A DNA stretch of 64,000 nt from Cheilinus undulatus. Its lineage: Eukaryota; Chordata; Actinopteri; Labriformes; Labridae. The notes beneath the pieces are model-generated. The model was given only the letters and a program-made list of their open reading frames with translations. It had not been told where the DNA came from and searched no databases. The position numbers were made by a program, and so were the translations under genes. The DNA is taken from positions 44,256,429-44,320,428 of the forward strand of contig NC_054878.1 in the NCBI RefSeq assembly GCF_018320785.1, read 5' to 3'. This document shows, in pieces, positions 19,770 to 63,204 of this stretch. Numbering within the stretch: the first letter of the stretch is position 1; the number at the start of each line of letters is the position of its first letter.

Positions 19770-21016
19770 CACACTATATTGCCAAAAGTATTCACTCACC
19801 CATCCAAATAATTGAAATCAGGTGTTCCAATCACTTCCATGTCCACAGGTGTATAAAATCAAGCACCTAGGCATGCAGACTGTTTCTACAAACATTTGTG
19901 AAAGAATGGGTCGCTCTCAGGAGCTCAGTGAATTCCAGCGTGATACTGTGATAGGATGCCACCTGTGCAACAAGTCCAGTGGTGCAATTTCCTCATTCCT
20001 AAATATCCCACAGTCAACTGTCAGTGGTATTAGAACAAAGTGGAAGCCATTGGGAACGACAGCAACTCAGCCACCAAGTGGTAGGACACGTAAAATGACG
20101 GAGCGGGGTCAGCAGATGCTGAGGTGCATAGTGTGCAGAGGTCACCAACTTTCTGCAGAGTCAATCGCTACAGATCTCCAAACTTCATGTGGCCTTCAGA
20201 TTAGCTCAAGAACAGTGGTAGAGAGCTTCATGGAACGGGTTTCTATGGCTGAGCAGCTGCATCCAAGCCATACATCACCAAGTGCAATGCAAAGCGTTGG
20301 ATGCAGTGGTGTAAAGCACACTGCCGCTGGACTCTAGAGCAGTGGAGATGCGTTCTCTGGAATGACGAATTGCGCTTCCTCATCTGGAAATCTGATGGAC
20401 AAGTCTGGGTTTGGCGGTTGCCAGAAGAAGGGTACTTGTCTGACTGCATTGTGCCAAGTGTAAAAATTGGTGGAGGGTGGATTATGGTGTGGGGTTGTTT
20501 TTCAGGAGCTGGGCTTGGCCCCTTAGTTCCAGTGAAAGGAACTCTGAATGCTTCAGCATACCAAGAGATTTTGGACAATTCCATGCTCCCAACTTTGTGG
20601 GAACAGTTTGGGGATGGCCCCTTCCTGTTCCAACATGACTGTGCACCAGTGCACAAAGCAAGGTCCATAAAGACATGGATGAGAGAGTTTGGTGTGGATA
20701 AACTTGACTGGCCTGCACAGAGTCCTGACCTCAACCCCATAGAACACCTTTGGGATGAATTAGAGTGGAGACTGAGAGCCAGGCCTTCTGGTCCAACATC
20801 AGTGTGTGACCTCACAAATGTGCCACTGAAAGAATGATCAAAAACTCCCATAAACTCACTCCTAAACCTTGTGGAAAGCCTTCCCAGAAGAGTTGAAGCT
20901 GTTGTAGCTGCAAAGGGTGAAACGTCATATTAAACCCTATGGATTAAGAATGGGATGACACTTAAGGTCATATAAGAGTCAAGGCAGGTGAGCAAATACT
21001 TTTGGCAATATAGTGT
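19770..21016 (+). mobile_element. Tc1-like transposon, family 2, near full length but disabled
   Basis: The terminal inverted repeats are about 30 bp: CACTATATTGCCAAAAGTAT on the left, and on the right its inverse ending near 21015 before TA. The transposase starts at MGRSQELSEFQRDTVIG (19906), with helix-turn-helix region to about residue 110. A frameshift and a stop near 20235-20300 separate it from the catalytic half. The DDE residues are still readable: [17 protein letters not shown] and [15 protein letters not shown] (spacing fits DD34E). The reading frame is broken, so it is probably inactive. Confidence 0.88.
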
Positions 21017-27580: not shown

Positions 27581-27859
27581 TTAAAATGAAAAGGCATTTA
27601 AGTGATTATATGATCTTTCCTGAGGGATAAAAATCTTTATTTCTGACGAGAATGGGACCAAACATCTGAAATCAGACGTCATTATTCTTCCCATGAGATC
27701 TCATGAGTCATAGCATGATAGGGCTCTTCTTGGCCTCGCTGAGTTCAACCAGACAAACATTATGAAATGTAAGGCAATAAAAGTAGACCACAGAGAACAC
27801 TGGCAGCAGAAAGAATGCAGCGCTTTGATTCCATGTCTTCCTCTGTCTCCTGCAGGGCG

Positions 27860-29878
27860 ATGGCGAGGCCGAGCCACAGCGATCACGTCCTCCAGCAGCT
27901 CAACAACCAGCGTGAGTGGGGCTTCCTGTGCGACTGCCTCATCGCCATTGGGGATATCTATTTCAGGGCGCACAAGGCCGTCCTGGCGGCCTGTAGCTCC
28001 TACTTTCGGATGATGTTTATCCGTGACCAGCAGGGGGCAGGCCGCCTGGACCTGAGCAACATGCAGATCAGTGCTGAGTGCTTCGACCTCATCCTGCAGC
28101 TTATGTATCTTGGCCGTATCGTTGTTGGGAGCTACGAGTTTGAGGAGCTCAAGGCCTCCATGGCGTATTTGCAGATGTACTACATCCCCGACTCACTGGA
28201 GGATCTCAGAGACATCAGAAGCTCCAACCTCACCCCGTCCTCCTCAGCCTCCTCCTCGTCCAGTTCCTCTTCCGGATCTGCTGGAGGGAAAATGATGTTT
28301 GGAGTTCGCATGTATGAGAAGCAGAGGCCCCCTGCACCAGACGTAGAGCGCTTACCTAAAGCTGTAAATAGCACCGCGGCGCGTCCAGCTGTCCCAGTGA
28401 CTGTAAGCAGAGTGGCAGTTGCAGAGGAGGTAGTGAACACGCCTCTCATTGTGGCACCACCTGTGGTCGATGGCGCTGTCGAGCAGCCGTGTGATCTAAG
28501 AAAGAGGTCCAGTGCCAGAGGGTCAGCGCTTAAAGATCGTCCTCGTTTTGGACGCACGTATACCTGCGATGACTGCGGCTTCGTTTTCAGCTGTGAGAAG
28601 CTTTTAATCGAACACATCCTGACATGCACCAACCGGAAGGCCTTCCATCAGCCCAGAGGTAACACAGAGGGCGATAACGAGTCCAGTAAAGCTGAGAGCT
28701 CCACCTCAGAGAGCACAGAAGACCGGGCTGTCTGTAAAGGTGAGGACGACTGGCCGGGGGTCAAGGCCGACTCTGATCTCAACATCAGGTCGGTGGCAGC
28801 TGGGACGGATGGTGAACCTGGGTCAACCCGGAGTGTGTCAATCAAAACAGAACCAGAAGAAAGCATGTTTCCTGAGATAGAAATGATCCAAGTCGGGGAG
28901 CTCACCAGCAGAGACTGTAGCGCACGAATTGGTGATGCCTCACGTAAAGACCTATTGAGCGTGGAACGTGAACCAGAGCCCAGCGTGTCTGGTGTTGATC
29001 ACAGTAGCGAGCCATTTGAAGGGTTAGGAATTCCAGCAAAGCTCCGTAAAATCAAGGAGGAGAAGCAGGATGCTGACTCCGTCCCTTGTGAGTTGTGTGG
29101 TGATCTGTTAACAGAGGAGGACAAGTCAGCCCATTACCTGTCCAATCATATGGGTCATATATGTGCCTGTGGGAGGTGTGGCCAGGTGTTGATCAAAGGC
29201 CGCCAGCTGCAGGAGCACGCCGAGCGCTGTGGTGAGTCCCAGGGGAGGGAATCTGACTCAAACGGAGAGGATGAGGCATCTCTTCTGGAAGAGCCCCATG
29301 GGATGGATGAGGGTCTGCTGGACACGGCAGACCTGGCGTGCTCTCACTGTGGGCTACTGTTTCAGAATGAGAGTCTTGCGCTGGAGCATGCCTTGTCCTG
29401 TCATGACCAGGAGTTGTTCCGCCCTGTGCTGTTGGAGGAGGGCACTGAACCCGATCACCGCCGCAAACACTTCTGCAGCATCTGTGGAAAAGGCTTCTAT
29501 CAGCGCTGCCACCTGCGGGAGCACTATACCGTCCACACCAAGGAGAAGCAGTTCACCTGCCAGACCTGTGGGAAGCAGTTCCTGAGAGAGCGCCAGCTCA
29601 GACTGCACACTGACATGCACAAAGGCATGGCGCGCTATGTCTGCCCTGTGTGCGACCAGGGAACCTTCCTTAAGCATGACCATGTCAGACACATGATCTC
29701 CCATCTGTCGGCCGGGGAAACCATCTGCCAGGTGTGTTTCCAGATCTTTCCAGGCGGAGAACAGCTGGAGAAACACATGGACGTTCACCTGTACATCTGT
29801 GGCGTCTGTGGAGAGAAGTTCCGCCTCCGCAAAGACATGAGGAGTCACTATAACTCCAAACACACCAAGAGACTATAG
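27860..29878 (+). CDS. zbtb1: ZBTB1, BTB/zinc-finger transcriptional repressor
   Basis: A single coding exon of 672 residues. Residues 1 to about 125 are a BTB domain (MARPSHSDHVLQQLNNQREW start, then GFLCDCLIAIGDIYF). A Ser-rich linker and the family motif KMMFGVRMYE follow. Zinc-finger units are: CDDCGF...HILTC, CELCGDLL...H, CACGRCGQVL...ERC, CSHCGLLF...SC, then five closely spaced C2H2-type fingers from HFCSICGKGFYQRCHLREH to the end (RSHYNSKHTKRL). SIKTEPEE is a candidate SUMO site. Known mammalian roles are repression, lymphoid development and support of PCNA ubiquitination at damaged DNA. The upstream in-frame ATG at 27815 lies before the acceptor that ends at 27855 and is intronic. 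The intron-free coding sequence agrees with the mammalian gene structure as I recall it. Confidence 0.95.
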   Translation: MARPSHSDHVLQQLNNQREWGFLCDCLIAIGDIYFRAHKAVLAACSSYFRMMFIRDQQGAGRLDLSNMQISAECFDLILQLMYLGRIVVGSYEFEELKASMAYLQMYYIPDSLEDLRDIRSSNLTPSSSASSSSSSSSGSAGGKMMFGVRMYEKQRPPAPDVERLPKAVNSTAARPAVPVTVSRVAVAEEVVNTPLIVAPPVVDGAVEQPCDLRKRSSARGSALKDRPRFGRTYTCDDCGFVFSCEKLLIEHILTCTNRKAFHQPRGNTEGDNESSKAESSTSESTEDRAVCKGEDDWPGVKADSDLNIRSVAAGTDGEPGSTRSVSIKTEPEESMFPEIEMIQVGELTSRDCSARIGDASRKDLLSVEREPEPSVSGVDHSSEPFEGLGIPAKLRKIKEEKQDADSVPCELCGDLLTEEDKSAHYLSNHMGHICACGRCGQVLIKGRQLQEHAERCGESQGRESDSNGEDEASLLEEPHGMDEGLLDTADLACSHCGLLFQNESLALEHALSCHDQELFRPVLLEEGTEPDHRRKHFCSICGKGFYQRCHLREHYTVHTKEKQFTCQTCGKQFLRERQLRLHTDMHKGMARYVCPVCDQGTFLKHDHVRHMISHLSAGETICQVCFQIFPGGEQLEKHMDVHLYICGVCGEKFRLRKDMRSHYNSKHTKRL

Positions 29879-36985: not shown

Positions 36986-38300
36986 GTATTAAAAGTACCG
37001 TAGCTTTAGCAAAGGTTTCTACTAGCGAGGGGGAGAGAGATCACTGAAAGTCTGACTAAAATCACAGTTTGTCAACATTTATCAGCCCCTTTTGGTATCA
37101 CATAAATAAAGTTAGATTTGTCTCATACAAACAGAGCAGAGGAGGTTGGTTGGTGATACCTGGAGTTTGGGTGAAGATCTGCAGGTTATTTTTAAAGCTT
37201 TGGTACTTTCTGATCCCACCAATCAATAAAGGAACAGAAAGTGCATTATTTTACAAAACTCATCATCAAGTATCAAACATTTTGATTATCTTAAACCCAG
37301 AATTGTTTAACTTTTAGCTCTACTTGGATCAGACTGATCCACAGACAGTACAATATATAAGATCTCATTATCAGGTCCTTGGTCCGGCCTGTTGATCCTC
37401 CAGGACTTGGACCTTAAATCTTTAAAACCCTTGACCGTCCATTACCGTCAGACAGTCACACTGAGTCTTCATGTTCATTTTAAAGGTCACGTGTTGCTGG
37501 GTTCTGATTGGTCTGTTTATGCTCTGATGTTTCTTCTTCATGTGTTCGCCTGTGTTTTGTTGTTCTGAATTGTTTTCTGATGTTTTCTTTGTGAAGTTTC
37601 TGATCTCTTTGAATCAACACTCGCCTTTCTTTACGCTCAATAAACCAAGAGATAAAACACCAGCGCTTCTTTTGTTCTCCTTGATCATCAGTAGCAATCG
37701 CTTTAGAAGCCGGACATCTACAGCTTCTGTCCTTAAGGAGGCCCGAGATTAACATGGTCTTTTTAGAGTGCTCCAGACATGCTGTCCTATTTCATGACTG
37801 ATTTTATGCCTGTTTATTTATGTATGCATGCATGCCTTCCAGGGCTTCTGCAGTGAAGTGCATTTTAAACATGCTTTGTTCATCATGTATTTTTTAAATC
37901 TTAGGTATAAATTGCAGATTTGTCATTGAATGCTCTTGAATGTCTGAAACATCAACATTAATTTGGGCCACTGTTCTCATTAAGAGGGTGGTGGTGGGTC
38001 CAAAGGCTAAGAACTACTGCTTTAACTTTAGAGTTTTAGCCTGCAGTTCACGATTTGGCCCCACAGGGGTAGTGTTGGGTTAAATGTATAGCTTACCTGA
38101 TGACTGGATGATTTTAGATTCTGCTCATGTTAAAGTGGTTTATATAAGTAGACCAATCAAATACAAAAATTAGGCTTTATTACATCATAATGAAGTGTAA
38201 TTCACAAAACAGCGCAATACAATGGCACTCAATGACTTTGTAACTAGATCAAAATTGTAATTTCAGCTGAAATCGCATTGGGATGCTGAGAGTTGAAGTG
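36986..38300. other. Intergenic, no gene seen
   Basis: Open frames on both strands at 37480-37755 overlap each other and lack any family signature. AATAAA at 37640-37645 (plus) might end a long zbtb1 transcript, but nothing else supports this. Confidence 0.4.
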
Positions 38301-38545
38301 TGCAAGAACTGCTGAAAATAGCCAAAAGCACAAAAATAGCATAAAAATAACATAAATTGGCATAAAAGTAGCTGAAAATGGCATTCAATAGCTCAAAAAG
38401 GATAAAAATAGCTGAAAGTAGCCTTAGAATAGCTGAAAATAGCCTAAAAATAGCTGATTTTGCTTTCAAAGTAGCAGAAAAATGCATTCAATGGCTGAAA
38501 AAGCATAGAAATAGCTGAAAACAGCATGAAAATAGCTATATTCTA
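38301..38545. repeat. Degenerate AAATAGCTGAAAATAGC tandem repeat
   Basis: Roughly 10-11 base units of the type AAAAATAGCTG recur about 20 times with drift. On the minus strand they give a Phe/Leu/Ala-rich open frame that is a repeat artefact. Confidence 0.7.
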
Positions 38546-39208
38546 AAAATTATAAAAGTTAGAAATGAGAAAAATCATAGCAGTCGAATGACAAAGAAAC
38601 TGAATTTTTTAGAGTTCAAACGGTGTCGATACAACAAAGTATGAAGGAGGAGATAGCGGGCACGGAAGAAGAAGAATAAACACAAAATGCCCGACGCGAA
38701 TATCAAAATGTGGATGCTCAGCATCCCCGCTTATTATTAATAATAGTTTAAGGGGGGAAACATCAGAGGTTAATTTATCAGCTTTAAAAGAACACGAAAG
38801 CCCTGAAGATTGTTATTGATTCATCATTATTGATGATCAGACCTCTATTCCCTGACAGGATTCAAAGTTAGAATGATTTACTCTCAGTTCCTGTTCAGAG
38901 TTGGAAGTTTTTTGTTTTTTTTTTCCCCCTGAAGCTTGTTTCTAAATCTATGGGTGAAACCCATCCATCCGATCAGGATTGACCTCCTCTGCAAGCATGG
39001 ACACAGGCAGGGGCATAGCTAGGGATTTTGGGCCCCCAGAAAGAATATTACACAGGGCCCCCTTTGACCGCTAGCCAAGCAACAAATGTGCCATTTTTAC
39101 AAGTATCAATGCATTTAAACGTATTTTTGAGCTGTAATTTCCCCATTTATGAGCAGTGTTTTTACTGTGGTTAAATCAAAGTTAGTGGGCACACAGATGG
39201 CTTATCTA
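38546..39208. other. Intergenic, no gene seen
   Basis: Contains GGGGCATAGCTAGGGATTTT near 39010, a phrase common in degenerate fish repeats. No gene or element ends are defined. Confidence 0.35.
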
Positions 39209-39368
39209 CGGTGGCCCTGAAGGCCAATAGGAATAATATTTAGAAAGTGCAAAATATATTTCACTTCTGTGAAATTTATTTGTGTTTTGTGAAATTTATT
39301 TTTGTTCTGTGAAATGTCTTTGTGTTTTTTTTAAATATTTTTTGCGCTTTTGGCCTTCAGGGCCACTG
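39209..39368. mobile_element. 160 bp MITE with TA flanks
   Basis: The left end is CGGTGGCCCTGAAGGCCAA and the right end is the inverse of CAGTGGCCCTGAAGGCCAA, 18 of 19 matching. TA lies directly outside both ends (39207-39208 and 39369-39370). The interior has the TTGTGTTTTGTGAAATTTAT unit. It is the compact relative of 18300-18750. TA flanks suggest a Tc1/mariner-type mobiliser. Confidence 0.82.
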
Positions 39369-39794
39369 TACCTAGCGGTCTAAGGCATGACCCATGTACG
39401 CGGGTGACCCGGGTACATGGTCTCTCCCTACTCTCGTCCCATTTCCGACTCTATCCACTGTCCTCCGCTGTCCAGTAAAGGCACTAAAAAGCCCAAAAAT
39501 AAATCTTAAAGTAAATAAATAAATAAATGCATTATTTCACAGCGCTGGACTACAACATTTGGACATTTTGAAGGGAGGAGCAGGGCAACCCAATGTTTTA
39601 TTTTTTTCTGTTTGATACAAATTTCAGTCTGTTGACTGATTCATTTAGTTGCTTTTGATTGAATAATACCACTAATTACTAAGAAAAAATAAATAAAACA
39701 CACCTCTCAGTGCAGGCTTCTCAAGGGCCCCTCCCTACTGTGGGCCTGGGTAATCTGTACTCTCTATCCCCCTGTGCTACACCCATGGACACAG

Positions 39795-40100
39795 GTTCCA
39801 TCCATCCATAATCAATGCTGCTTATCCCATTGGGGGTCGCGGGGAAGCTGGAGCCTATTCCAGCTGTCATTGGGTGAGATTGCACCCTGGACTGGTCACC
39901 AGTCAATCACAGGGCTGACATGTAGAGATAGACAACCAGGCACACGCTCACACTCACATGTACGGGCAATTTAGAGTCACCGATTAACCAGCATGCTTGA
40001 GCCTGTTTTTTGTGGTGGGAGGAAGCTGGAGTACCCAGAAAGAACCCACGCATGAAAGGCCCTGACCGGGAAGGCAACGGCGCTAACCCCAGGCCTAAAA
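39795..40100 (-). repeat. Teleost retroposon copy
   Basis: On the minus strand it ends with the ATGGATGG tail (CCATCCATC at 39799-39807) and carries GCTGGAATAGGCTCCAGC, GATTGACTGGTGACCAGTCC and the GGTTAGCGCCG 5' region. About 300 bp, near full length for this family. It lies just downstream of inafm2. Confidence 0.75.
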
Positions 40101-40327
40101 ATAACCGTGATGAGGATTAAAGAGGTGAAATCAACCACAAACTTTGATCAGCTGATGGACCGCCATGCTGAGCCCTCTGGCTTTAATAAATGTTTAAAAG
40201 TCAGACTGAATAGATCCGTCCATTAATAAATTAATTTAATGTTTCCTTTTAAAAATAAAAGAACTCTAGGATTGAGCATGGACCTGACAGGACACGGAGC
40301 AGAATCCACAGAAAAACAACAGTCCTC

Positions 40328-41491
40328 TTAAAAATCATCTTCCGGTTTCTCCCTCTTAGTGAAGGGACCAGGAGGTTCACTTGCAGATCCTTCGATTTCC
40401 TCTCCACGGTCCCTGGCTGGATGTGTGGGAAGGTTAGAAGGATCCTCTACGGTCACAGGAGGGGCCGCCGTGGAGATCAGGGCTGGGGATGAGGAGCCAA
40501 CTTGGTCCTGACTCGGTCTGGCTGCTCTGGTGGATGGATACTGTGAGCTGTGATCAGGTCCAGCAGAGTCTGTGTGAAAATAAACGTACAGTTAGGTCCA
40601 AACAGGAGACAGTTCAGATTCTTTTATGTTGAAGTGGAAACAGATTTTTACAAGGTAATGTCAAAATATCCATCCATCCCTTTTCTATACCGCTTATCCC
40701 ATTCCAGGTCACAGGGGGTCTGGAGCCTATCCCAGCTGTCATCGGGCGAGAGGCAGGGTACACCCTGGACTGGTCACCAGTCAATCTCAGGGCTGACATA
40801 TAGAGACAGACAACCAGGCACACTCACACCCACACCTACAGGCAATTTAGAGTCACCAGTTAACCAAAGAGCATGTTTTTGGGTGGTGGGAGGAAGCCGG
40901 AGTAGCCGTGCCGTAATGTCAAAATATTTAATGTTAAATAAGTGACTGCAGAAATATTCACCCACTTCAAGTAACAAACACCACTTATCTATGCTAATTA
41001 GCTTTTGGGTCAAAGCTAAGGTCAGAGGCTTTGGAGCATGCTCAGAAGGCCTGGTCCAGTTTGGGTCTGATTGAGGTGTAGACGTAAAAGAAAACCAAAG
41101 ATTGCCAAGATGTGTTAGTCCCACTTTGAGAAAACTGAGGTAATATGATTCCAGTCACACTCACATGTTTAGACAGGAAACTAAATGATTGATTCTTAAT
41201 CTTACTGGGATTATATGCTGATGACTCTTTTGTCCTGGTCCCTGAGGTCGTGGTTCCCGATGCCCCTGTCCTGGTCAGTCCTGGTGCAGCCGTTGGTGTC
41301 CAGATCAGGCTGTAGTACAGGACGAGGACGACAGCCGCCAGAGACACGGTCAGGATGTAGAGCAGCACGGTGGCCAGTCTGACCCACTTCTTATTGGCCC
41401 TGGTCTCCTGTCGGGCCCTCCGCTCCCCGCTATACAAGGCGACTCTCCCACGCTCCCCTGGGCTCGCTGTCCGGCTCCACTGGTTCTTCAT
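40328..41491 (-). CDS. inafm2: InaF-motif small membrane protein (INAFM2-like)
   Basis: Two exons, 41206-41491 and 40328-40569, give 175 residues. The start MKNQWSRTAS lies 28 codons inside a longer open frame. I chose it because InaF proteins begin with a short charged head, and GERGRVALYSGERRARQETR then matches. The InaF core follows: ANKKWVRLATVLLYILTVSL and AAVVLVLYYSLIW, one transmembrane helix at about residues 42-62. The rest is Pro/Ser/Thr-rich and ends EKPEDDF. Exon 1 ends AATCCCA|GTAAGA and exon 2 begins after TTTTCACACAG; the frame stays open across the junction to a TAA. Fly inaF binds a TRP channel, but vertebrate function is unknown to me. The intron holds a retroposon (40670-40912). 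The pak6 neighbour favours inafm2 over inafm1. Confidence 0.85.
40670..40912 (-). mobile_element. 5'-truncated retroposon with 15 bp target duplication
   Basis: Exact direct repeats GTAATGTCAAAATAT flank it at 40655-40669 and 40913-40927. On the minus strand it ends in ATGGATGG and carries GCTGGGATAGGCTCCAG and AGATTGACTGGTGACCAGTC. The 15 bp duplication supports target-primed reverse transcription. It lies inside the inafm2 intron. Confidence 0.88.
40993..41084. repeat. Left arm of an inverted repeat around inafm2 exon 1
   Basis: About 90 bases, matching the inverse of 41808-41900 with a 27-base core identical (includes GGAGCATGCTCAGAAGGCCT). The arms sit in the intron and upstream of the gene, with exon 1 between them. 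Confidence 0.75.
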
Positions 41492-41807
41492 GCTGCTCGT
41501 TTGGATCAGGACAGGAAGAGTGGGAGTAGAGAGTGAGCAGGGAAAGAGCCATCGGAGAAAAAAAAAAACCTCCATTATGATGATCAGTTTTTATATAACG
41601 GATGAATGGCTACCAAACCCCCTCCCATCCAGTCCTAATCCACCCCTCCTCATCCACAGGCAGTCCTTTCACATGAGAAGTGTATTTACCTCGTTAATGT
41701 GACTAAACATAGACGTTTAATATCCTTATCAACATGTTAGTCTAAATCAAATTTCTCAAAGTTAGACTGACACACCTAGACTAGGGTTGGAGACTGATTT
41801 ACTCCTG

Positions 41808-41900
41808 CATGTCTACATCTCAGTCAGACCCGACCTGGACCAGGCCTTCTGAGCATGCTCCACAGCCTCCTCTCCGGGCTTTGACCCAACAGTCAACAGC
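41808..41900. repeat. Right arm of an inverted repeat around inafm2 exon 1
   Basis: Partner of 40993-41084. GACCAGGCCTTCTGAGCATG is the shared core read on this strand. It lies about 320 bases upstream of the inafm2 start codon and so may be in its promoter region. Confidence 0.75.
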
Positions 41901-42555
41901 AAAAAAGGCATGTGTAGTGAATTGGTGTTCCCTCAGATATCACTCTAATCTGGAGCAAATGATGAGCTTCAAGGTGAGTCTAGTCACACTGAGGGGATCA
42001 GTAAACGGTACTTTTTAACTCCAGTAACTACAGTAGCTGTCAAAGAGCCTGCCCATAGAAACACCTTAACTATAGAATTATAATTTAGTTTTTCATCTCC
42101 ACCTGGTTATCTGTTAATTTACTTCAGAGGTAAACTCAGAACAATAAGTATGATTTTCGCTTTCACTGTAATGACTTAAACAATAATAATAATCATTTAA
42201 AAGATTTATAAAAAAACAGAGTTAATTCTGACATGATTTCAGCTTTCAAGGACCAGTCAGTGCTCAGTGTTGTCATCACATTATCATGACCGAAATGAGA
42301 GAAAAAAACAATCAGAGCAATCACACGTGACTTTATTTCATGAGAAACTGATACAGTAGTTATTGATTGGCTGTAAAACATTACTCATCAGCTCAGTTTA
42401 TTTAATCAATAAATGAGAGGCTCGAGTTTAATTTTGGAGAAAATTATGAATCAGTTCTTAGAAACACTTTGATTCAGTCAGAAATAATACTGCAAACATT
42501 CTGACAACAGGGGAACTTTCCAGAGTTTTAAGGATCATTTCAAAAATTTATCCCA
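41901..42555. other. Intergenic, no gene seen
   Basis: No exon, repeat end or simple-sequence array stands out. Confidence 0.4.
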
Positions 42556-43175
42556 ACTAAAAATAGAAAGAATAGATGAAGAATGAAAATAGAATAAAAG
42601 AAAATGGAAAAGAATTAAGAAAACAACAACAAATTAAAAATTGAGAGGAAAAAAAACAAAAGAATAATAAATCAAAACAAAATAAACAAAAAGAAAAATT
42701 AAAATTAAAAGAATAGAAATTAAACTGCAAAAATGATATCAAACAAAATTAGACAAGTAATTTAAAAAATACTTGAATGAATAATTAAAAAAATAAATGA
42801 AAAAAATTAAACAGAAACTTAAAGGTGAAAAATTTTTTAAAAAATAGCAAAAAATAAAATTAAAATAAAAATGAAATAAAAAAAAAACTTTAAAGATAGA
42901 TGGAATACAAGAAACAGAAATAAAATAAAAATGAACAGAAATAAAAAATTTGAAAAAATTTAACAAATGAGTAAAATAAAAGAAATAGAAATTAAATAAA
43001 AAATAAAATGAAACCAAATTTTGGAAAAAAATTTCAAATTAAATTAGATAATTAAAATTCAACAAAAAACTAACAAGTTAATAAAATGAAAATAAAATAA
43101 AATAAATGAAATCAAACAATAATTTAATCAATTAATGAAATTTTAAAAACTTAATTTAAATAAAATTGATATTTT
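42556..43175. repeat. Strand-asymmetric A-rich low-complexity tract
   Basis: About 600 bases of AAATAAAAATGAAAT-type sequence with very little C or T runs on the plus strand. Minus-strand frames give Phe/Tyr/Ser-rich nonsense. It lies just beyond the probable 3' end of the myosin gene. Confidence 0.8.
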
Positions 43176-43244
43176 TATTCTTCATTTCAGGTTTGACAGA
43201 GCTGATGGTGATAAAAAAAAAGATGCAAAATAATATTTGGGGTG

Positions 43245-43250
43245 TTTATT
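43245..43250 (-). terminator. Candidate poly(A) signal of the myosin gene
   Basis: AATAAA on the minus strand, 409 bases past the myosin stop codon. Minus-strand CATTGCAG|GTTTGT (about 43633) and TTTGATTTGCAG|GCG (about 43425) could also be a donor and acceptor of a 3' UTR intron. Confidence 0.4.
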
Positions 43251-43658
43251 GATTACATTTAGAGTTGAAAGATTTGAATTGAGCTGATGGCTGTTCCCAT
43301 GAATATGAAAGTGTTAAAATTTCCTTAATAATCACTAAAACTACATCCATTTAATATTTTACTAAAAATAAAATAAAATCCATTTGAGCTTCTCTCTGCA
43401 TTGCGGTCCAGGATCAGGAACGCCTGCAAATCAAAAACACAAATTAGTTTTAATATCAATGTTAAACATTCAAGTGTGAGGGTAGTTTTGTTCTTGATTA
43501 TGAATCAAACAAAAAATATTCATGAGCATACATTTCCACACAGCAGCCATTTCATATTTAATGTATAATTATCATAATTACTTTTTTGGTAGATTATATG
43601 ATTGTCACATTTATGTTGTGTCTCTACAAACCTGCAATGCTGACTCACTCCTCCATCC

Positions 43659-46600
43659 TCACTCATCCAGGCCCTTCTTGGACGATCCATCTCTGGTCTT
43701 GGCCCTCAGCTTGTTTACCTGGGACTCTGCGATGTCGGCCCTCTCCTCAGCCTCCTCCAGCTCATGCTGGAGCTTGCGAAGTTTAGCCATGTTCCCATTG
43801 GCGGCCTCCTCAGCCTCCTCTGCTGCACGTTTGTAGGATTTGACCTTCAGCTGCAGCTTGTCCACCAGGTCCTGGAGGCGGGCCATGTTCTTGCGGTCTT
43901 CTTCAGTCTGGTAGGTGAGCTCCTTGATGCGACGCTCGTATTTGCGGACGCCTTTGATGGACTCGGTTCCTCTCTTTTGCTCTGCCTCCAGCTCGTTCTC
44001 CAGCTCTTTTATGCGAGCCTCCAGTTTCTGGAGCTGCTTCTTTCCGCCCTTCATGGCGATCTGCTCAGCCTCATCCAGACGGTGCTGCAGGTCTTTGATG
44101 GTTTGCTCCATGTTCTTCTTCATGCGTTCCAAATGGGCACTGGTGTCCTGCTCTTTCTTCAGCTCCTCGGCCATCATGGCTGCATCCGTGATGGCTTTCT
44201 TTGCCTTCTCCTCAGCATTGCGGTTCTCCTGGATGGCCTCCTCTATCTCAGTCTGCAGGTGCAGGAGGTCGGCTTCGTGCTTCTTCTTCTGGTTGATCAG
44301 GCTGGTGTTCTGGGAGTGCAGGAGTTGCATGCGCTCTGTGGCCTCAGTCAGCTCCTGTTCAGCCAGTTTTCGGCTTCTCTCCGTCTGCTCGAGGGCAGCC
44401 CTCACTTCCTCCAGCTCGGCTTGGATCAGGTTGTGTCTGCGTTCCAGTAGGGCGATGTTCTCTCTCAGGTCATCGTTGCCATGCTGTGCATCATCCAGCT
44501 GGAGCTGGGAGTCCTTGAGGTACGCCTGAAGGCTTTTCAGCTGTTTCTGGGCATCAGCAGCCTGTCTGTTAGCTTGGCTGAGCTGGATCTCCATCTCGTT
44601 GAGGTCTCCTTCCATCTTCTTCTTGACTCGCAGGGCCTCGTTGCGGCTCCTGGTCTCAGATTCCAGAGAGGACTGAAGAGATTCAAGCATTCGTTGGTAG
44701 TTTTTCTTTGCCTGCTCCATTTCTTCATCTTTCTCAGCCAGCTTGCGCTCCATGTCAGCTTTCACTTGGTTGAATTCCAGCTGGGCTCTTAGGATCTTGC
44801 TTTCTTCATGTTCCAGAGAACCTTCTGCCTCCTCCAGTGCTGATTGGAGCTCAGCCTTTTCTTGCTCAAGCTGCTTCCGAATCTTCTCCAGTTCATGAGC
44901 GCTCCTGCCGCCCTCCCCCAGCTGGTCAGTGAGATCAGAGATCTCCTCTTGGAGGTTCTTGTTTTCTCTTTTCATGGTCTCCAGTTGATCCAGGGACTCC
45001 TCATAGGCATTCCTCAGTTTGAAGAGTTCAGTGCTCAAAGACCGAGATTCCTTTTGAGAGCTTTCCAGCTCGCACTGCGACTCCTCAAACTTCTGCTTCC
45101 ACTCTGCCATGACTTTGTCAAAGGCTCTTTGTTTTTTGTCCAGCGCTGCAGACGCTGCGTTGGATCTTTCAAGGTCCAGCATCAGGTCTTCAATCTCATT
45201 TTGGAGGCGGTGCTTAGTTTTCTCCAGCGATGAACACTTTGCATTCACAGCTTCGATAGCCTCTTCAGCCTCCTGCAGTCTTTGGACCAGTTTCTTCTTT
45301 GCTTCCTCCAGTTCCTCTGTTCTCTGGATTCCATCAGTTTCATATTTTGTTCTCCATGCTGAGATCTCCGTGTTGGACTTGGACAAAGCTCTCTGTAGCT
45401 CAGCCTTGGCTTCCTGCTCCTCCTCAAATTGCTCTCGAAGCAGATCACAGTCATGACGAGCGGACTGCACAGCATGGGCGAGAGCATTCTTGGCCTTCAC
45501 TTCTTCCTCCAGCTGTCTGCGTAGGTCTTCGACCTGCTGGTTGTACGACATCTTCACTCTGGTCAGCTGGGATATCAGACACTCCTTCTCCTCCAGCTGA
45601 CGTCCAAACTCGCCATTCTCAGTGAGCAGCTTGGCCCTCTGGGTAGTCAAGTCATTGATAGCTCTTTGAGCTTCCTCATATTTACTCTTGAACTCATTCA
45701 TGTTGTCTTCCATTGAACGACACATCTTTTCCATGTTTGACTTGGCCTTCACCACGCTCTCCATGTTGGAGGATAGGTCATCCAGCTCCAACTTCAGCTC
45801 ACTCTTTTCCTTTTCCAACTTTTGCTTCACACGCTGCAGGTTATCAATTTGTTCACCAAGTTCGGCTACACTATCGGCATGTTTCTTCCTCAGGGAGGCA
45901 GCGGTGGCTTCATGTTGAAGGGTAGACTCTTCCAGCTCCCTACGCAGCTTCTGAAATTCAGCATCTCTCTTTTTATTCATTTCCACTTGGGCTGATGTTG
46001 CTCCACCCGCCTCCTCCAGACGCTCGCTGATGTCCTCCAGCTCACGGGAAAGATCAGAGCGCTGCTTCTCGACTTTGGCCCGGGCTGCACGCTCAGCATC
46101 CAGCTCCTCTTCCAGCTCCTCGATCCTCGCCTGGTTTTCTTTTAACTTCTTCTGCAGCTGAACCGACGCGACCTGCTCATCTTCTAGTCTTGAATTAATT
46201 TGGACCACCTCAAAATCTTTCTTCTTCAGTTTTTCCTCCAGCTGCTGCTTGTCATTTTCTATGTCCATCAAGCTCTCCTGGTTCAGTTTCAGGTCTCCTT
46301 CAAGCTTCCTCTTTGAGCGCTCAAGGTCCATCCTCACTTTTTTCTCTTGCTCCAGTGAACCTTCCAGATCATCCACTTGTTGCTCCAGTTTGACTTTGGC
46401 TTTAGTCAAACTGTTGACCTTATCTTCTTCACTCTGCAGGTCGTCCAGTGTCTGCTGGTGAGCCTCCTGCAGTGACTTCTTCTCTTTGGTTAGCTTCATG
46501 ATGTTTTCATCCTGGGAAGCCATCTCCTCTGTCAGGTTTTTGACCTTATTCTCAGTGGCGTGTTTCTCTTTCTCCACCTTGGCCAAAGTCAGCTCCAGAT

Positions 46601-49460
46601 CATCGATGTCTTTCTTCAACTCGGAGCATTCATCTTCTAGCTTACGTTTCTTCGCCGTGAGATCTGCATTCAGCTCCTCTTCATCTTCCAGGCGTTCTGT
46701 CATCTCTTTCAGCTTGGCCTCCAGCTGAATCTTGCTTTTTATCAGCTGCTCACACCGTTCTTCGGCGTCTGTGAGTGTGTCCTGCTCAGCCTGAATCTGC
46801 AGAGTCAGATCGTTCTTCTCTTGGAGAACAGTCACGATCTTCTCTTCCAGTTCCTTCCGTCTTGCTTCGGATTTCTCCAGCGCTTCTTTCAGCTTGTTGA
46901 ACTCATCCTTCATGTTGGCCATCTCCTTCTCAGACTCAGCGCTCTTCAGAAGAGGTTTGATCTTGAAGAACAGCTTCATCCATGGCCAGTTCTTGACACC
47001 CAGAAAGGAGCGTAGGTTCCACTGAATGACCATCAGGGCATCTCTGCGCTCCACAAGCTTTGCAAACTCAGCTCTCATTAGGATTGCCCGGGCATTAGCC
47101 TGGATCCTGGTGATGATGCGAGAGAGTTGCTCGTCTCGCATCTCTTCCAGCGTCCCCAGCAGACCAGCTTTGAAAAAGACTTTGGTGTGGCCAAACTTGT
47201 ACTGGGTGTGGTCGATGTCCAGTGATCCCAGCAGCTTTTCTGCACTCTTCTTGCAGTCGATGAACTGACCTTCAGGAATCGCAGAGGCATTCAGGATCCT
47301 GTACCGCTGTTTGAAGTCACCGTAGAGCACCCTGTTTGGGAAACCCTTCCTACAGATTCGGATGCCTTCCAGGACGCCGTTACAGCGCAGCTGGTGCATC
47401 ACCAGGCAGTTGTCCATGATCCCTGGAGTTTTACTCTCATTAGGAATCAGACAGCGGACAAAGTGGGGATGTGTTGTCTTCAGGTTGCTCATCAGCTTGT
47501 TCAGGTTTTCCCTGTGAAGTGCAGACACAGTCTGGAATGAGGAACCTTTCTTCTTGGCTCCTTTTCCACCTCCTTTGTCTCCACCGTCTGCTCCTGTATA
47601 GCTCGAAAACAGCATGCTAAGAAGCTTCAGCGCTGATTTCTGGTAAAGACCAACCACTGTTTCATTCAGAGGATCTTTGTTTTTGACTAACCAGTTGCCG
47701 ATGTTGTAGTCCACCGTGCCAGCGTAATGAACCAGGGCAAAATGAGCCTCTGCTTTCCCCTTTGCAGCCCTCGGCTTCTCAAACATCTTGTTCTTGCCCA
47801 GATGATTATCATAGAGCTTGGATTTGAAGGTCTGGTCGCTGGCTTTTGGAAACATGCATTCTTCCTCAAGAATTGACAGGATGCCCAGCGGTTTCTCGAT
47901 GAGGTCAATACAAGCCTGCAAGTCCATCCCAAAATCAATGAACTCCCAATCAATGCCTTCTTTTTTGTACTCTTCTTGCTCCAGAACGAACATGTGATGG
48001 TTGAAAAACTGTTGCAGTTTCTCGTTGGTGTAGTTGATGCACAGCTGCTCAAAAGTGTTGAAATCAAAGATCTCAAATCCAGCAATGTCCAGCACTCCTA
48101 TGAAGTACTGACGATGCTGTTTGGTGTCCAGGGATTGGTTGATCCTCACCACCATCCAGTTGAACATCTTTTCGTACACTGACTTTGCCAGAGCACCGAG
48201 GGCGTAGTAGACTTGGTCCACACTTTGGCCTTTGGTGACATATTCATTTCCCACCTTTACTCTAGGATGGCACAGCCCTTTGATAAGGTCGGCAGAGTTC
48301 AGCCCCATTAGGTACGCTGATTTATCTGCAGCCTCGGTCCCATCTGGCTCTGCCTGCTCCTCACGCTGCTTTTGCTTGAACTTCATGTTGCCGTAGTGCA
48401 TGATGGCACCAGTCAATTTATAGACGCCCATCTTCTCCTCCGAAGTGAAACCGAGCACATCGAAGGCGCTGTCGGTGGCCATCAGCTCCTCGGCGTCGTT
48501 GATGGAGGCGACTGTTACCTCTCCTTGGGAGATGTAAGAGTAGTCATATGGGTTATTAGTGATCAGCAGCATGTCCAGCAGCTCTGGCTTCTGATTGGAC
48601 AGGATCTGGTAGAAGATGTGGTAGTTCCTCTCAGCCTTGAGCTGAAAGGTTACACGGGACTTCTCCAGCAGGTACGTCTCGATGTCAGCAGACGACAGCT
48701 TGCCGCTCGTACCAAAGTGAATTCGGATGAATTTACCAAAACGTGACGAGTTGTCGTTTCTTAATGTTTTGGCGTTGCCGAAAGCCTCCAGGGCGGGGTT
48801 AGCCTGGATGATTTGATCCTCCAGTGTCCCCTTACTGGTGTCTCTTTTGCCTCCACCGACCGCTGCGATGCTAGCAAAGTACTGGATGACTCTCTTGGTG
48901 TTCACAGTCTTCCCCGCTCCGGATTCTCCGGTGATGAGGACGGACTGGTTCTCCCTGTCAGTCAGCATGTACTGGTAGGCGTTATCAGAGATAGAAAAGA
49001 TGTGCGGGGGAGCCTCGCTCCTCTTCTTCCCCCTGTAAGCCGCCACCACCTCAGCATCATAGACAGGAAGCCACTTGTAAGGGTTGACGGTGACGCAGAA
49101 GAGCCCAGAGTAGGTGTAGATCATCCACGCTGCGTAACGCTCTTTGAGGTTAAACAGCACGGCGGGCTCGTGCAGGAAAGTGAACATCGCCATGTCTTCG
49201 ATTTTATCAAATTTGGGCGGGTTCTGGGGGTGGACGTCAGATTCTTTCACCGTCACTGTTGTTCCATCCTCTTTCTTGACCGTCACACTCCCTCCATCTT
49301 TGCTCTGGATTTGTCCCTTCACATATTCCACTTTATCGTCCACTACGAAGCATTCGGTTTTGATGTCAAAAGCTCGGGTCTGGGACTCCAGTCGCTCCTT
49401 TTCTGACTTCCTCAAGAAAGGAGCCGCCTTCCCGAACTCGGCCATCAGAGCATCACCCAT
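43659..49460 (-). CDS. Sarcomeric myosin heavy chain, coding sequence in one exon
   Basis: An uninterrupted frame of 1933 residues, the normal length of muscle class II myosin heavy chains. Motor landmarks are intact: P-loop GESGAGKT (178-185), switch [12 protein letters not shown] (about 235-245), switch [10 protein letters not shown] (458-465), Lys/Gly-rich loop 2 (about 624-640), SH2 and SH1 cysteines (693 and 703), a light-chain-binding IQ-like helix (about 780-830) and the Pro hinge near 836. From about 840 to near the end is the heptad-repeat rod. The C-terminus (GLDE) and [10 protein letters not shown]-type motor sequence suit slow/cardiac-like or other sarcomeric types; I do not assign a named paralogue. 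The start [14 protein letters not shown] is 30 codons inside a longer open frame and matches the family. Vertebrate sarcomeric MYH genes usually have nearly 40 exons, so this looks like a retrocopy. With no stop or frameshift in 5.8 kb, it appears to be maintained by selection. Confidence 0.95.
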
Positions 49461-49562
49461 GGTGGAGGGTGGAGGATCACTGCAGGCAGCAGAGGGAGTG
49501 GTCTGAGTCTGTTCTCTGGTGAATCTGAAGCAGCACTGCAGACTCTCCACAGGAGGAGGATG

Positions 49563-49570
49563 CTTTTAAA
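49563..49570 (-). promoter_or_regulatory. TATA-like element upstream of the myosin
   Basis: TTTAAAAG on the minus strand, about 105 bases upstream of the ATG, could set a start giving a 70-80 base leader. Alternatively, CTCTGCTGCCTGCAG, an acceptor-like sequence ending 19 bases before the ATG (49480-49481), suggests that a 5' UTR intron remains. The sequence cannot decide between these. Confidence 0.4.
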
Positions 49571-52500
49571 GACCTCCTGAAGACCAAATTAGGAGAGATC
49601 TGCTGGAAAGAAAGGAGCATTGATGCTAAATTGGATGTGAATGCATCATGAGGGCAAATTCAGGACCTTTGGCTGTGAGTGTCCATTTTAGGAGGAGCTT
49701 ATCTGTCTGCTGATATGGCCTCCCTATGCTACCTATCACCTCCTAACGCCTCCTATCACCTCCTGATTCCTCTTCATTTAGACTCCACTCATGCTGTCTG
49801 TGGACATCTCCTCTCTACTGCACATCCTCCACCCTTTATTCTACAGCACAGTCCCTTGGTTAAATTTAAAACTTCATTCAACAGCTACTTCTTTTTATTA
49901 TGCCTCTCTGAATCATATCATGGCTGGAGGGGAAAACATTTTAAATAACCTTTTTTTTCAGTTGACAAAGCCACATGCCTTCATAGTTGCAGGATAAAAT
50001 CAAATCAGGCTCAAGAATAGAGGAAATTCTAAATGATTTGACACAGGCAGCTGGTGTTTGAGCGTTGGATTTTCATTTGCTCCAGTTATCATCCTGAAAT
50101 TTGATTTCAGACCTTTTTTTTTTAACTAAAAGGAGAAGTACAGCAGTTGACTGGTTTCAGTTTCAGCCTGACTAATGAGGGAATCCAGGGGAAAACCTGG
50201 TTTTAAATGTAGGTTGTTTGCAGTCACCTGATCCAGAATGTCCACTGCTCCATGCTGCATCCTGGAGCAGATTTTACCAAGAGTACTCTGATGCAGACAA
50301 ATTGGCCAACATACATCAAATCCATACCGGAAGTCTCAACCGGAAGTCTGTACGTCTAAGGTTAGGCTTAGGTATTAAAACCCGAGTAGTTAGGTTCAGG
50401 GTAAGGCAGTGGGGAAGGTGATATATTTGAGATCCAGCACCAAGGCTTAGGCTTAGGCGCGAACAAGACTGACAACCACTGGCAGCTTGGATGTATAGCG
50501 ACGCCCATGTAGGCCATCTTGACTGCAGTTGGGTCCCTCTCAATTTTACTGCCTCATTTTTTCAGGATTTTGAAGCTCAATTTCACAAATTTAGAGATTT
50601 TTTATTTGACCGAAATTTGATTTAGGGGTTCATAACACAGTGACCGGTCATACAGCAAACTTAAATATACACAGGGTCTAAACTACGGCAAAAATGTATT
50701 GAACCAAAGCGGACCACTTTGTAGAAAGGGACCATACACTAGCAGCTTGTCAAGGCATTAGATGGAGGCTTTTTTATTTCCTGCCTGCTGCTGTTTCTCT
50801 GTGACTTTTAAAGCTTTTGCCTGAATATTTCACTACTTTCAGGACATGAAAATAGCTTAATATTTAAGAATATTTATAGTTTCACACTTTGAATGGTCCT
50901 AAATAGATCAAAACATGTTTTTCTGGAAGTGTTTATGCGGAAATCACTGCTTGCCTTCCCAGGTTAGTTCTCTGCCGCTGCTTCACATCATCTGCAAAGA
51001 GCCTTTAATGGAGATGCTGATTATTTAGTTAGCTATGGTCTGATAAGTCAAACTGACTTTAGTAATAATCTCAGAATGACAAATGGTGTTTTTTGATGTA
51101 TTAAAATGAAGATTAAAGTCTAAAATCACTGCAAGGTAAATTTAAAAAAATGTTATTGCAAAAAACAAATTCACAGAGTCCTCATTTTTTGTACTGGTTT
51201 TGCTCCTTTATAAATAAAACTGCTGATATTCATCTGTTCTCTGTACACTGAGGATGATTTCACAGACTCTGAAGTCCAGGACTGTCATTTAGAAATGTTG
51301 CGTAGGTGCAAACCAGAGCCTGATGTTGGCGTATGCCACTTCCCTGCCAAGAGTATGTGGTTCACTAAAAAGAGACCTGGTGGTCAAATGTGTGCAAGGT
51401 AGATTTACCAGAGTACATTTTACTCAAATAGACTAAAAAATCACTGTGAAAAATAAAAAAATTCATCCCAGCATATTTGGAGTAAAATTCTCTCTGCTTG
51501 CAGAGTAATATTTCAGAGTTGTTTTTACTCTATAAATGTGATTTTTTTTTTTTACTCTAAATGACGACTATGTACTCCACAGGGAAAAAAATTAAAATAA
51601 CTCTACAGTAATTGACTCTGTACAGTGTTGTATCTAGTCCTTTCAGAGCTATCTAGAGTATATCTTGAAAAATAATAGAACGATATTTTCATCAAAAAAA
51701 TTGAGTATAGTTGGACTAAAATACTTGCAAAAATATCAGTCATATGTCATAATAGTGCTAAATCTGGCAGGGAAAAATGAACATAACCGGTACCCGAATG
51801 AAGAGCCGTTTGGGAGCAGAAAGAGTCAAACTAAATGATCCGGATCACTGGAAACAGCCAAATTCCCATCACTACTGAGTTATAGCTTCAGTGGGTGTAG
51901 TTGATGTTTTATTCCAGCAGAATTTCCTCTGTGTTTTTACTCCAACTCTGGCGGTGGATGGTAATAAATGCACTCAAAAAAGAGCAAATTTTACTACTTT
52001 TAAGTAAAATATTTTTTTACTCAGGAAAAATGACTCCCCAGATTTTAATGATGTGAGCACCTGTTTCATCATGTTACGATAACAAACAACATTTCAGATA
52101 TCACAAAATCTGCTGAGATACAATATTGATATGATTCAATAAAGGAGCCTATGATCGATACCAATTTATACTGATATTTCACACTGTTAGAGAAAAAAGT
52201 ATTTATTATTACTGTATTTTATAAAAGAAACCTCTTTTATCTAAAAGAACACACTACAGTAATACAGTAATTCACTACAGTAGTATGTGTTATTTCATAA
52301 ATGTGTAATTATTTAAAATTCAGAACCACAGTTACTTTACGTACCACACATTTTTATTTCTTCATCTCCTCAGTTCACTAAAGCACCAATATGGGCTTCA
52401 TCTACAACCTTTCATCAACATTGTCACATTTTTGGCCTGTTTTTCTATCTTTTTTTCTGACATATTTATTTGTATCGCACTGCAAAATATCGCCATATTA

Positions 52501-54165
52501 GTGTATCTGCTTTCTAACACCCCTAGTATTTCCTCTTTTAGAGAACTGAAACTCTGCAGATGTATAACCCCACTGAGCTGACATGGAGCCTTCCTCTCAG
52601 TGTGTGTGGTTTAAAGAGTGTCGGATAGAAGAGTGTCAGTGAGGGGCTGAAGCATGTCTCTTTATCTCTGACAGTTTGGACTCGTCAGCTCTGGAAATAG
52701 AAACCAGCTCGACTTTAATCTGATGTTATCTCTGTCACTCAACGGCGTGGGACACTTCAGTCTGCAGCGCTTTAAACATCCTTGTAGGATGATCAGTGAC
52801 AAAACTAAGAACAAACTCCATGTTTGTGAGCAAGGGGAGGCAGTCCTGAGAGAGGAATGTATTTAATAATAAGTAATTACCTTTCTTATTTCATTAGCAA
52901 AGAATTTCAGCGCTTTTTTTCAGAGACATTAAAGCCACAAAAATGTGCTGGCATGTTCATTATACAATAAATAAGCCAATAGCATTTATTTAGTTGAAGC
53001 AGGCATCTGTAATCTCTTAAAATATGCATTGTGCCACCATAGAGCTTTTCCTAGCAATGTTAATGCAACATAGAAGAACGTTTAATGGAGTGTCACCAGG
53101 TAATTAAGCACCAGTTAAAGGGGACATATTATGAACAAAAATATGTGCCCCTGATCTGTCTACAATCCCCTCAAGTACCAGAATCTTCTCCTGTGTTTAC
53201 ACTGATCAAATGAGCTGGACTTTGGGGTCAAGTGTACTCAGATCTGGGCCCAGATCCCAAATGTGAAACCAGTCTAATTTGGAATTAGTGGCAAATGTCA
53301 GGTGGTGCAACCACAAATGCAGTAAGACTTACTTTGGGACCAACCCGAATAAACCATCATGTATATATTTACTGTTACGGCGGTGGTTACAGTTGAGATC
53401 ATCAGTTTATGAGGACTGACAGTAGTAGTCAATTTTGATTTGTAATGCAGAGTTTTAGGTAGTTTATGGTTAACAGAGCACAGGTTAGTGATTTGTTTGG
53501 ATGATTCGTTGGGAAGGATGGTGATTGGCTGTTGTAGCAGCTAATGTGCTAACAAGCTAACTTAGAGCTAATGGAGCTAACGTGAAGTTAAGTGCTGGTT
53601 TTTTTTAAAATGCACACATATATTGTGCGACTGTGTGTAAGGAACAGCTCACAGCTTTAATGAAATGTGTTTAAACCACTTACACAAAGACAAATGAGAG
53701 TGACTTTGTCAGTCATTACCAAAGTCTGGTCATGAGTATTATTCATGTTTCATAATATAATCATCTTTATTTATTTACATCAGTTTTCCTTATCAAAATT
53801 TATGTAAAATAAAAAAAAAAACATTCAACCCATATGTGCAAAGTCACATTCTGTGTGAAATGTGCAAGTTTTCAACATTTTATCCTCGTCTGAAGTTAAA
53901 AAACAAACAGGGAAATTAAGAGCTGTGTAATATTCAACATTTAGATTATAGGATCATAGGAAAATTATCCAAACAATGACTGACATTCGGACAGAAAGAA
54001 ATGGAGTACAAATCAGTCACAATACTGCCAAGTCCGTCTTTGTTTTGCATATTTCTTGCTCTTAAATGTTTCAGATCAAACAAGTTCTATTATTAGAGAA
54101 AGGGGACTCAGGGAAATACACAATGCAGTTTGGAAATGATGATTTCATTCACTAAGGAGAAAAAA
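49571..54165. other. Intergenic between myosin and the Tc1 remnant, no gene seen
   Basis: About 4.6 kb with no recognised exon. A GTTAGG/CTTAGG-rich patch lies at 50350-50460. Degenerate TTTACTC/ACTCTA words (51400-52040) look like old repeat. TTAAAGGGGACATATTATGA near 53115 is a phrase common in fish repeats. Upstream myosin control elements may lie in the first kilobase but were not identified. Confidence 0.45.
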
Positions 54166-54690
54166 GCCATCCAAATCTACCCGGCCCTATGAAAAAAGTA
54201 ATTGCCCCCCCTTCCCTTGTTAAATCATGAATTAACTGCAATAAACCTCATTTTTTGGAAATCTGAGTTCAATTTAACTATCCACACCCAGGCCTGATTA
54301 CTAAGAACAAATGAGAAACAAAGTGATTGGCATCTGTTGGTCTGGAAAGGGTCACAAAGATGTTTTGGAGGCTTTGGGACTCCACCCAACCATTGTGAGA
54401 GCCATTACCCACAAATGGAGAAAACTTGGAACAGTAGTCCAGGGGATCACAGAAGATCCCAGAACAACATCTTAAGACCTGCAGGCCTCACTGACTCAGT
54501 TAAGGTCAGAGTTCATGATTTAACCATAAGAAAGACACTAGACAAAAATGAGAGTTCCAAGGCCAAAACCACTGCTGAACAAAAAGAGCAGAAAGGCTCG
54601 CCTCACATTTGACTAAAAACATCTTCATGACCCTCAAAACTTTTGAGGAAATATTCTGTGGACAAACCAAAAACAGAGTTTCCCCTTAAA
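54166..54690 (+). mobile_element. Tc1-like transposon remnant, family 4
   Basis: The left end GGCCCTATGAAAAAAGTAAT followed by TGCCCCC is a known fish Tc1-type terminus. CTTTGGGACTCCACCCAACC, GTGAGAGCCATTACCCACAA and GACCTGCAGGCCTCACTGAC are decayed transposase-region words. The 3' half is missing. The short fragment at 7006-7110 is the same family. Confidence 0.7.
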
Positions 54691-55011
54691 ATGAGATTGT
54701 TGTTTAAAAATGGCACTTTGTATTAACTCGGGTTACCTTGGTCTAATACTCAAATTTGTTTGATGATCTGGGACATTTAAGTGTACCACATTACTATGAG
54801 TTGTTTTTGTCAGGTACGGCTCTCTAGCACTTGTGTATATCCTGATTGTGCAGGCGGAGCATCCACATTGCATACCCATGCCAAAGTCCACCTCTTCCGA
54901 CCCAAAAATGGGGCACACCAATCATGCTCGGGCAAGGTACAGATGGCCTATGACAGCTTAATGTGATACAAAATTATTCTTGGATTTCTGTCTACACTGA
55001 TGATAGGAGTT

Positions 55012-55017
55012 TTTATT
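55012..55017 (-). terminator. Candidate poly(A) signal of pak6
   Basis: AATAAA on the minus strand, about 315 bases past the pak6 stop codon. No other evidence supports it. Confidence 0.35.
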
Positions 55018-55331
55018 TTCTGGGTTGTGACTCTTATTCTTTTTGATGAAATGTTTTTTATCAAGAATCGATGTCTAAAATATTTTCCTTGTTCTCTTGC
55101 ATGAAGACGATCTTTGTGAACAGAAACTACAAATATTTAAATACTATTTCAGCAGCGTCAATGTGAACCAAGTCAGTGGTTCTTTCACAATAAAATTCCC
55201 TGACAGGAAATGATCAGCCCAACTGTCAAAATAAAGTCCAGGTTGTTTTTAAGTCCTTATAGGTGACATCAGTAGGCATTAAAACAAAATGTCCCAAAGC
55301 TGGATGTCAGAGTTCCCATCCGGGTATGCAT

Positions 55332-63204
<7,873 letters not shown>

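Follow-up and report, generated by a model that had tools for sequence, protein, structure and literature searches.

How did a full-length sarcomeric myosin heavy chain (MYH) come to be encoded without a single coding intron in the genome of Cheilinus undulatus, and which myosin is it? The question is raised by a 64,000-nucleotide stretch of contig NC_054878.1 (hereafter the window), in which a preliminary description placed a single-exon MYH of 1933 codons with no internal stop and with every motor signature present. When the region was translated, the coordinates given there proved exact from start to stop, and the strand, which had been left unstated, was found to be minus. The ATG begins at 49460 and the TGA occupies 43661-43659, so that the coding sequence (CDS) measures 5802 nt and its sole stop is the terminal one (stop-to-stop frame 43659-49565). 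Frame 1 of the plus strand over the same interval contains many stops. When the bases of the window were shuffled 20 times, no stop-free run exceeded 202 codons, versus 1933 in the gene. GC content at codon positions 1, 2 and 3 was 0.58, 0.31 and 0.64, respectively, and 0.39 in the flanks. The description as a single exon holds for the coding part, while an intron in the 3' untranslated region (UTR) is possible (Table 1).

The predicted protein matched three Pfam families above their cut-offs, namely Myosin_N (1-45 of 45), Myosin_head (2-679 of 679) and Myosin_tail_1 (4-1080 of 1081). The N-terminal, motor and rod domains are thus complete, and the domain plan is the same as in mammalian MYH6 and MYH7. 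The motor motifs are intact as well: GESGAGKT (178-185), NDNSSRFG (235-242) and DIAGFE (458-463), which we take to be the P-loop, switch I and switch II, and CNGVLEGIR (693-701). The product is best explained as an ordinary muscle myosin II, which would have an ATP-driven motor head and a filament-forming coiled-coil rod.

The assembly comprises 46 contigs and 1.17 Gb, and the window was located in its contig C14. When this assembly was searched for the myosin head (at least 146 matches; 65 of 577 candidates scored), the window gene alone, among the 146 matches listed, covered head positions 2-679 in one open frame. A search with the window protein gave at least 111 matches (24 of 2495 candidates scored), and among the matches listed all others were pieces of at most 232 residues, none of them more than 89 % identical to the window protein. 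Short conserved exons reach 98 % identity. Nine spliced paralogue models, one of them partial (C20_1), were fitted with a purpose-written aligner (Table 1); three further places with sarcomeric MYH matches (C3:31.0 Mb, C21:12.9 Mb, C21:27.0 Mb) lie outside these nine. Three slow/cardiac-type MYH genes were seen at C13:2508398-2571223 (plus strand) and C13:2893365-2925274 (minus strand); two of them form a tandem pair, and the third lies in inverted orientation at a distance of about 320 kb.

Nearly all intron positions and phases are common to the paralogue models. Introns at residues 679 and 1759 are found in the four fast models and absent from the cardiac/slow ones, and C20_1 has the one at 679. 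None of the introns of the nine models is present in the window gene. In the alignments to C13_1 and to C13_2, each of its 1933 residues has a codon as partner, leaving no intron remnant. The longest coding exon among the paralogue models is 390 nt, and the eight models that are full or nearly so extend over 9.9-31.9 kb of genomic DNA versus 5.8 kb for the window gene. The alignment to paralogues proposed in the preliminary description thus gave 35-37 coding introns in these eight models versus 0 in the window gene, and intron-bearing relatives persist elsewhere in the genome.

Table 1 Features of the window (positions counted from its first letter) and modelled MYH paralogues of the same genome
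Feature	Position	Strand	Details
Myosin heavy chain CDS, intronless, sarcomeric, very probably teleost myh6-type	43659..49460	minus	1933 codons + stop
Stretch between outer presumed myh6 primers F459 and R1325	48142..49002	minus	861 bp, intron-free
TATA-like TTTAAAAG, putative core promoter	49563..49570	minus	110 bases before ATG
CArG-box match CCTAATTTGG, putative SRF-type site	49584..49593	minus	-133
CArG-box match CCTAAAATGG, putative SRF-type site	49683..49692	minus	-232
Candidate 3' UTR intron	43424..43648	minus	Donor GTGAGT 10 nt after stop; CTAAT before TTTGCAG acceptor
AATAAA polyadenylation signal, possible 3' UTR end	43245..43250	minus	One of several downstream A[AT]TAAA hits
InaF-motif ORF, inafm-type neighbour	41042..41590	minus	PF15018, 4.5e-14
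PAK6-like kinase exon	62047..62607	minus	Pkinase 26.6 bits, below the 31.7 cut-off
C13_1, cardiac/slow			83.6 % identical to window gene; 36 coding introns
C13_2, cardiac/slow			84.1 % identical; 36 coding introns
C13_3, cardiac/slow			82.2 % identical; 36 coding introns
C19_1, cardiac/slow			84.4 % identical; 35 coding introns; model ends before last short exon
C9_1, C9_2, C21_1, C21_2, fast			75.9-76.9 % identical; 37 introns; models stop at residue 1924
C20_1, partial			76.1 % identical; 27 introns

Maximum likelihood (ML) trees of protein, codon and codon position 1+2 data, rooted on the fast genes and C20, were used to place the window gene. In all three, C19_1 and the three C13 genes formed a group with 100 % support. 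The window gene branched outside this group and, relative to the fast genes and C20, on the cardiac side. Matches to PDB sequences likewise associate it with cardiac/slow rather than fast MYHs. The best full-length match was MYH7 (3506 bits; fast MYH4, 3278), MYH6 being listed as motor fragments only. When the motor was considered, the best match was MYH6 (1535 bits; MYH7, 1500), with 85.8 % identity to MYH6 and 83.3-84.7 % to MYH7 chains.

For the name of the gene we turned to myh6, one of the single-copy fish phylogenetic markers picked for long exons, with four primers, F459, F507, R1322 and R1325. The presumed primer sequences were scored against the window gene and the nine paralogue models. 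R1322 and R1325 showed 0 and 1 mismatches, respectively, in the window gene and at least 5 in all nine paralogues. F507 showed 3 mismatches in the window gene versus 4-8 in the paralogues, where both forward primer sites fall outside the C20_1 model. F459 is the exception: it has 2 mismatches in C13_1, C13_2, C13_3 and C21_1 versus 3 in both C21_2 and the window gene. The window gene is therefore the best of the ten genes for three of the four primers. The F459 site begins at CDS position 459 and the F507 site at 507, in the window gene and in the C13 models alike, so position does not discriminate, and the reverse primers end at CDS 1319 and 1316, not matching exactly the numbers in their names. 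Eight of the paralogue models include the marker stretch; in each it is split by nine introns and takes up 1.7-8.3 kb of DNA versus 861 bp, so that none of them could give an intron-free marker of this length. Because no paralogue exon is as long as 861 bp, the single-exon nature of the gene seems to have been implicitly known already.

Thus, myh6 is the most economical name that the sequence comparisons offer, and the window gene very probably represents teleost myh6 (amhc), the gene of the atrial myosin heavy chain, in the form of an old functional retrogene. Apparently, then, this is a known fish gene and not a new one, and if the marker is the one presumed here, its single long exon has already been exploited by fish systematists. 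The hint in the preliminary description at an intronless MYH in some fishes seems right in substance, given the fit to this marker. The name myh6 appears in fish phylogenetics papers (e.g., PMC1838417 and PMC7959404). Among the open-access matches listed, no statement that fish myh6 is a retrogene was found, which is weak evidence as most journals lie outside that collection, and three surveys of single-exon genes or retrogenes (PMC8207432, PMC3091775 and PMC2048973) contain neither "myosin" nor "myh" in their main text.

Retroposition into a new locus is the mechanism that we infer. The spliced mRNA of an ancestral cardiac/slow MYH would have been reverse-transcribed, and the copy would have been inserted between an InaF-motif gene on one side and a PAK6-like gene on the other, where it would have acquired or evolved a promoter of its own. 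Purifying selection would then have kept it since before the duplication that yielded the intron-bearing cardiac/slow genes of C13 and C19, and its myosin product most likely works in the atrium, a site of expression suggested by the role of the gene in other species. The reading as an mRNA retrocopy put forward at the outset gains support from the lack of introns versus 35-37 in the relatives, from the clean joins and from the low omega (see below). In the case of the usual insertion marks, no run of 8 or more A was found in the 2.5 kb downstream of the gene, and the 400 bp that precede the ATG share no exact direct repeat of at least 10 bp with the 1500 bp that follow the stop, in agreement with the earlier remark that neither a poly(A) tract nor a target duplication is left. 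As such marks fade with age, their absence gives the mechanism no support and does not exclude it.

The intronless structure is also typical of processed pseudogenes, and a young or decaying copy that is still open by chance would look similar at first sight. The pattern of substitution makes this a negligible prospect. NG86 dN/dS between the window gene and the four cardiac/slow paralogues was 0.037-0.051, values that are approximate as dS is saturated, and omega was 0.051 in a one-ratio codon ML model of seven genes (C9_2, C21_2 and C20_1 left aside), as an average over the tree and not for the window branch alone. The window gene was also compared at 688 informative codons whose state is identical in C19_1, C13_1, C13_2 and a fast gene, and it shows 198 synonymous versus 43 nonsynonymous codon changes there. 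The gene is thus under purifying selection, as had been claimed, and the dN/dS near 1 that was named as evidence to the contrary is not seen. When neutral change of 0.1 substitutions per site was simulated, 21 stops arose on average and at least 11 in each of 100 runs; over the range from 0.1 to 0.5 the average rose from 21 to 64. Moreover, no close intron-bearing parent (dS below 0.1) was seen, the closest modelled relative being C19_1 with saturated synonymous sites. A full-length, intron-free mature CDS also resembles cDNA, and the preliminary description had named a misassembled contaminant as a concern. Such an artefact of contamination or contig assembly can be practically dismissed: the gene lies within contig C14 with non-coding DNA and other genes (the InaF-motif ORF and the PAK6-like exon) running on at both sides, no near-identical parent exists among the matches listed (best whole-gene identity 84.4 %, no piece above 89 %), and the presumed marker primers fit the window gene.

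Two further explanations accept a working gene and differ in its history or name; we regard both as improbable. Recombination of an ancestral MYH with its cDNA, in place, would likewise remove every intron exactly and would leave neither target duplication nor poly(A) tract, as found here. It is the neighbourhood that argues for insertion elsewhere. The human counterparts of the flanking genes, INAFM2 and PAK6, presumably lie on chromosome 15. Human MYH7 and MYH6 are described as a tandem pair on chromosome 14 (PMC8783688), so that, by this comparison, the locus in the window looks new. Alternatively, the window gene could be a functional retrogene that is nevertheless a separate, lineage-specific cardiac MYH and not myh6/amhc, since its orthology is argued from presumed primers, an equal CDS length and elimination, and one of the four primers does not favour it. 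Both reverse primers, however, discriminate strongly for the window gene, and all nine other modelled sarcomeric MYHs carry introns. We retain the reading of the window gene as retroposed myh6.

Its age and its relation to mammalian MYH6 were addressed with further comparisons. In agreement with the trees, the proportion of synonymous differences (pS) from the cardiac/slow paralogues was 0.71-0.73 for the window gene, while C19 and C13 differed from each other by 0.63-0.64. The window gene is changed at 78 of 1350 positions that are invariant in eight paralogues, and 61 of the 78 belong to the rod. When single paralogues were left out in the same manner and the window gene was counted among the others, the yardsticks were 16 of 1288 for C19_1, 29 of 1301 for C13_3 and 4 of 1276 for C13_1. 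By these counts the window gene evolves faster, and its basal place could partly reflect long-branch attraction. C13 and C19 may be partners from the teleost genome duplication, a view drawn from the zebrafish gene set (PMC10713478). If so, the insertion would predate that duplication.

When three mammalian PDB sequences (MYH6/MYH7) were added to a tree of the motor, the mammalian MYH6 and MYH7 paired with each other, the window gene had no well-supported place relative to the mammals and to C13+C19 (46.3/68), and C13 and C19 were joined at 97.6/59 (C20_1 was excluded from this tree and from the count of invariant positions). In AU tests on the motor the free tree gave 0.57-0.59 and a tree with the fish genes together 0.33. 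One-to-one orthology with tetrapod MYH6, with the window gene and MYH6 grouped to the exclusion of MYH7, was rejected (7.35e-05). The rejection fits the account in PMC2786259, by which the mammalian MYH6/MYH7 pair and the Xenopus pair arose by separate tandem duplications.

The flanks were compared with the other loci. No match to any modelled MYH locus was found in the 1500 bp upstream, and the promoter therefore probably either arose at the new locus or has diverged. Three weak matches of 27-41 bp between the flanks and paralogue loci (upstream, L007; downstream, L009 and L018) were not accepted as homology. The 700 bp before the ATG were scanned for 13 motif classes and compared with shuffles. 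Only TTTAAAAG (1 found, 0.03 expected; a motif added to the scan after being seen), CArG, which we take to be the SRF-type site (two sites; 4 hits over both strands, 0.12 expected), MEF2 (one palindromic), GATA (4, 1.8 expected) and E-box (one palindromic) were above the shuffles. In the same 700 bp TATAWA was not found (1.6 expected), and MCAT, both Nkx patterns, Tbx, RARE, the DR1 pattern and ACATGT did not occur.

At the 3' side, the donor of the candidate UTR intron is expected 0.014 times per 50 nt, and under a strict filter no acceptor was found in the 600 nt after the stop, which makes the candidate a weak one. A long T-rich low-complexity tract was noted by eye at 42600-43140 (minus strand), just past the possible 3' end. 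On the far side of the gene, the best chain for 62047-62400 was PAK 6 (1.1e-33), with PAK 4 and PAK 5/7 close behind.

MicroRNAs were also looked for. At curated thresholds, Rfam gave nothing in the whole window or in 14 paralogue loci, and lax scans of five loci and of window positions 38000-56000 gave sub-threshold matches only. Presumed patterns of miR-499 and miR-208 were not matched exactly at any of 30 loci. We draw no conclusion from these negatives, as C20_1, which we guess to be the MYH7B-type microRNA host and which could have served as a positive control, was covered only in part. The introns of human MYH6 and MYH7 are described as containing miR-208a and miR-208b, respectively (PMC6402096, PMC3602621).

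Several known systems resemble the window gene. MYH6 of Sebastes schlegelii, reported as highest in the heart, has a CDS of the same 5802 bp and a protein of 222.63 kDa and pI 5.62 (PMC8228858) versus a computed 222.41 kDa and pI 5.55 here. Teleost myh6 (zebrafish weak atrium) is a cardiac-type MYH like the window gene, on which three of the four presumed primers fit best. The intron-less rhodopsin of teleosts, as presented in PMC11461388, is alike in being an old retrogene with a major physiological role whose intron-bearing parent persists; its intron-bearing form has five exons, whereas the window gene lacks 35 or more introns. The intron-less hatching enzyme genes of teleosts are alike in having lost introns and changed locus by retrocopy. 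Their promoter reportedly moved along (PMC6385490), whereas the 1500 bp upstream of the window gene match no MYH locus that was modelled.

In our judgement, made without a survey, a strongly constrained CDS of 5.8 kb that has shed 35 or more introns is a large case of a working retrogene. Loss of the zebrafish counterpart, myh6, is described as abolishing atrial contraction (PMC3602621). Fish myh6 would have its name, and probably its role, in common with mammalian MYH6 without a one-to-one line of descent, a point of consequence for fish models of MYH6 heart disease. An intronless CDS would also explain why a long stretch of myh6 amplifies from fish genomic DNA. Further, a locus without coding introns, having no more than a single exon junction close to the stop, would respond differently to mutation, and nonsense-mediated decay and transcriptional adaptation may differ from those of other cardiac myosins. 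Whether, jointly with this last consequence, the atrial myosin of ray-finned fish is a retrogene older than the teleost duplication, not orthologous to tetrapod MYH6 and independently recruited to the atrium, we regard as evenly balanced.

Other elements were observed elsewhere in the window. Tc1/mariner-like transposase pieces in overlapping frames, probably a broken copy, lie at 19816-20337 and 20253-20837 (plus strand), with HTH_SB at 42.5 bits, just below the cut-off of 43, followed by DDE_3. Two ORFs at 14937-16129 (plus strand) resemble, on visual inspection, a fragment of a LINE-type reverse transcriptase, Pfam being blank on the second. Long C2H2 zinc finger ORFs are found at 27773-29878 (plus strand), also with BTB, and at 11588-12823 (minus strand). 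A tandem array of a 52-bp unit in 5.2 copies occupies 59057-59331.
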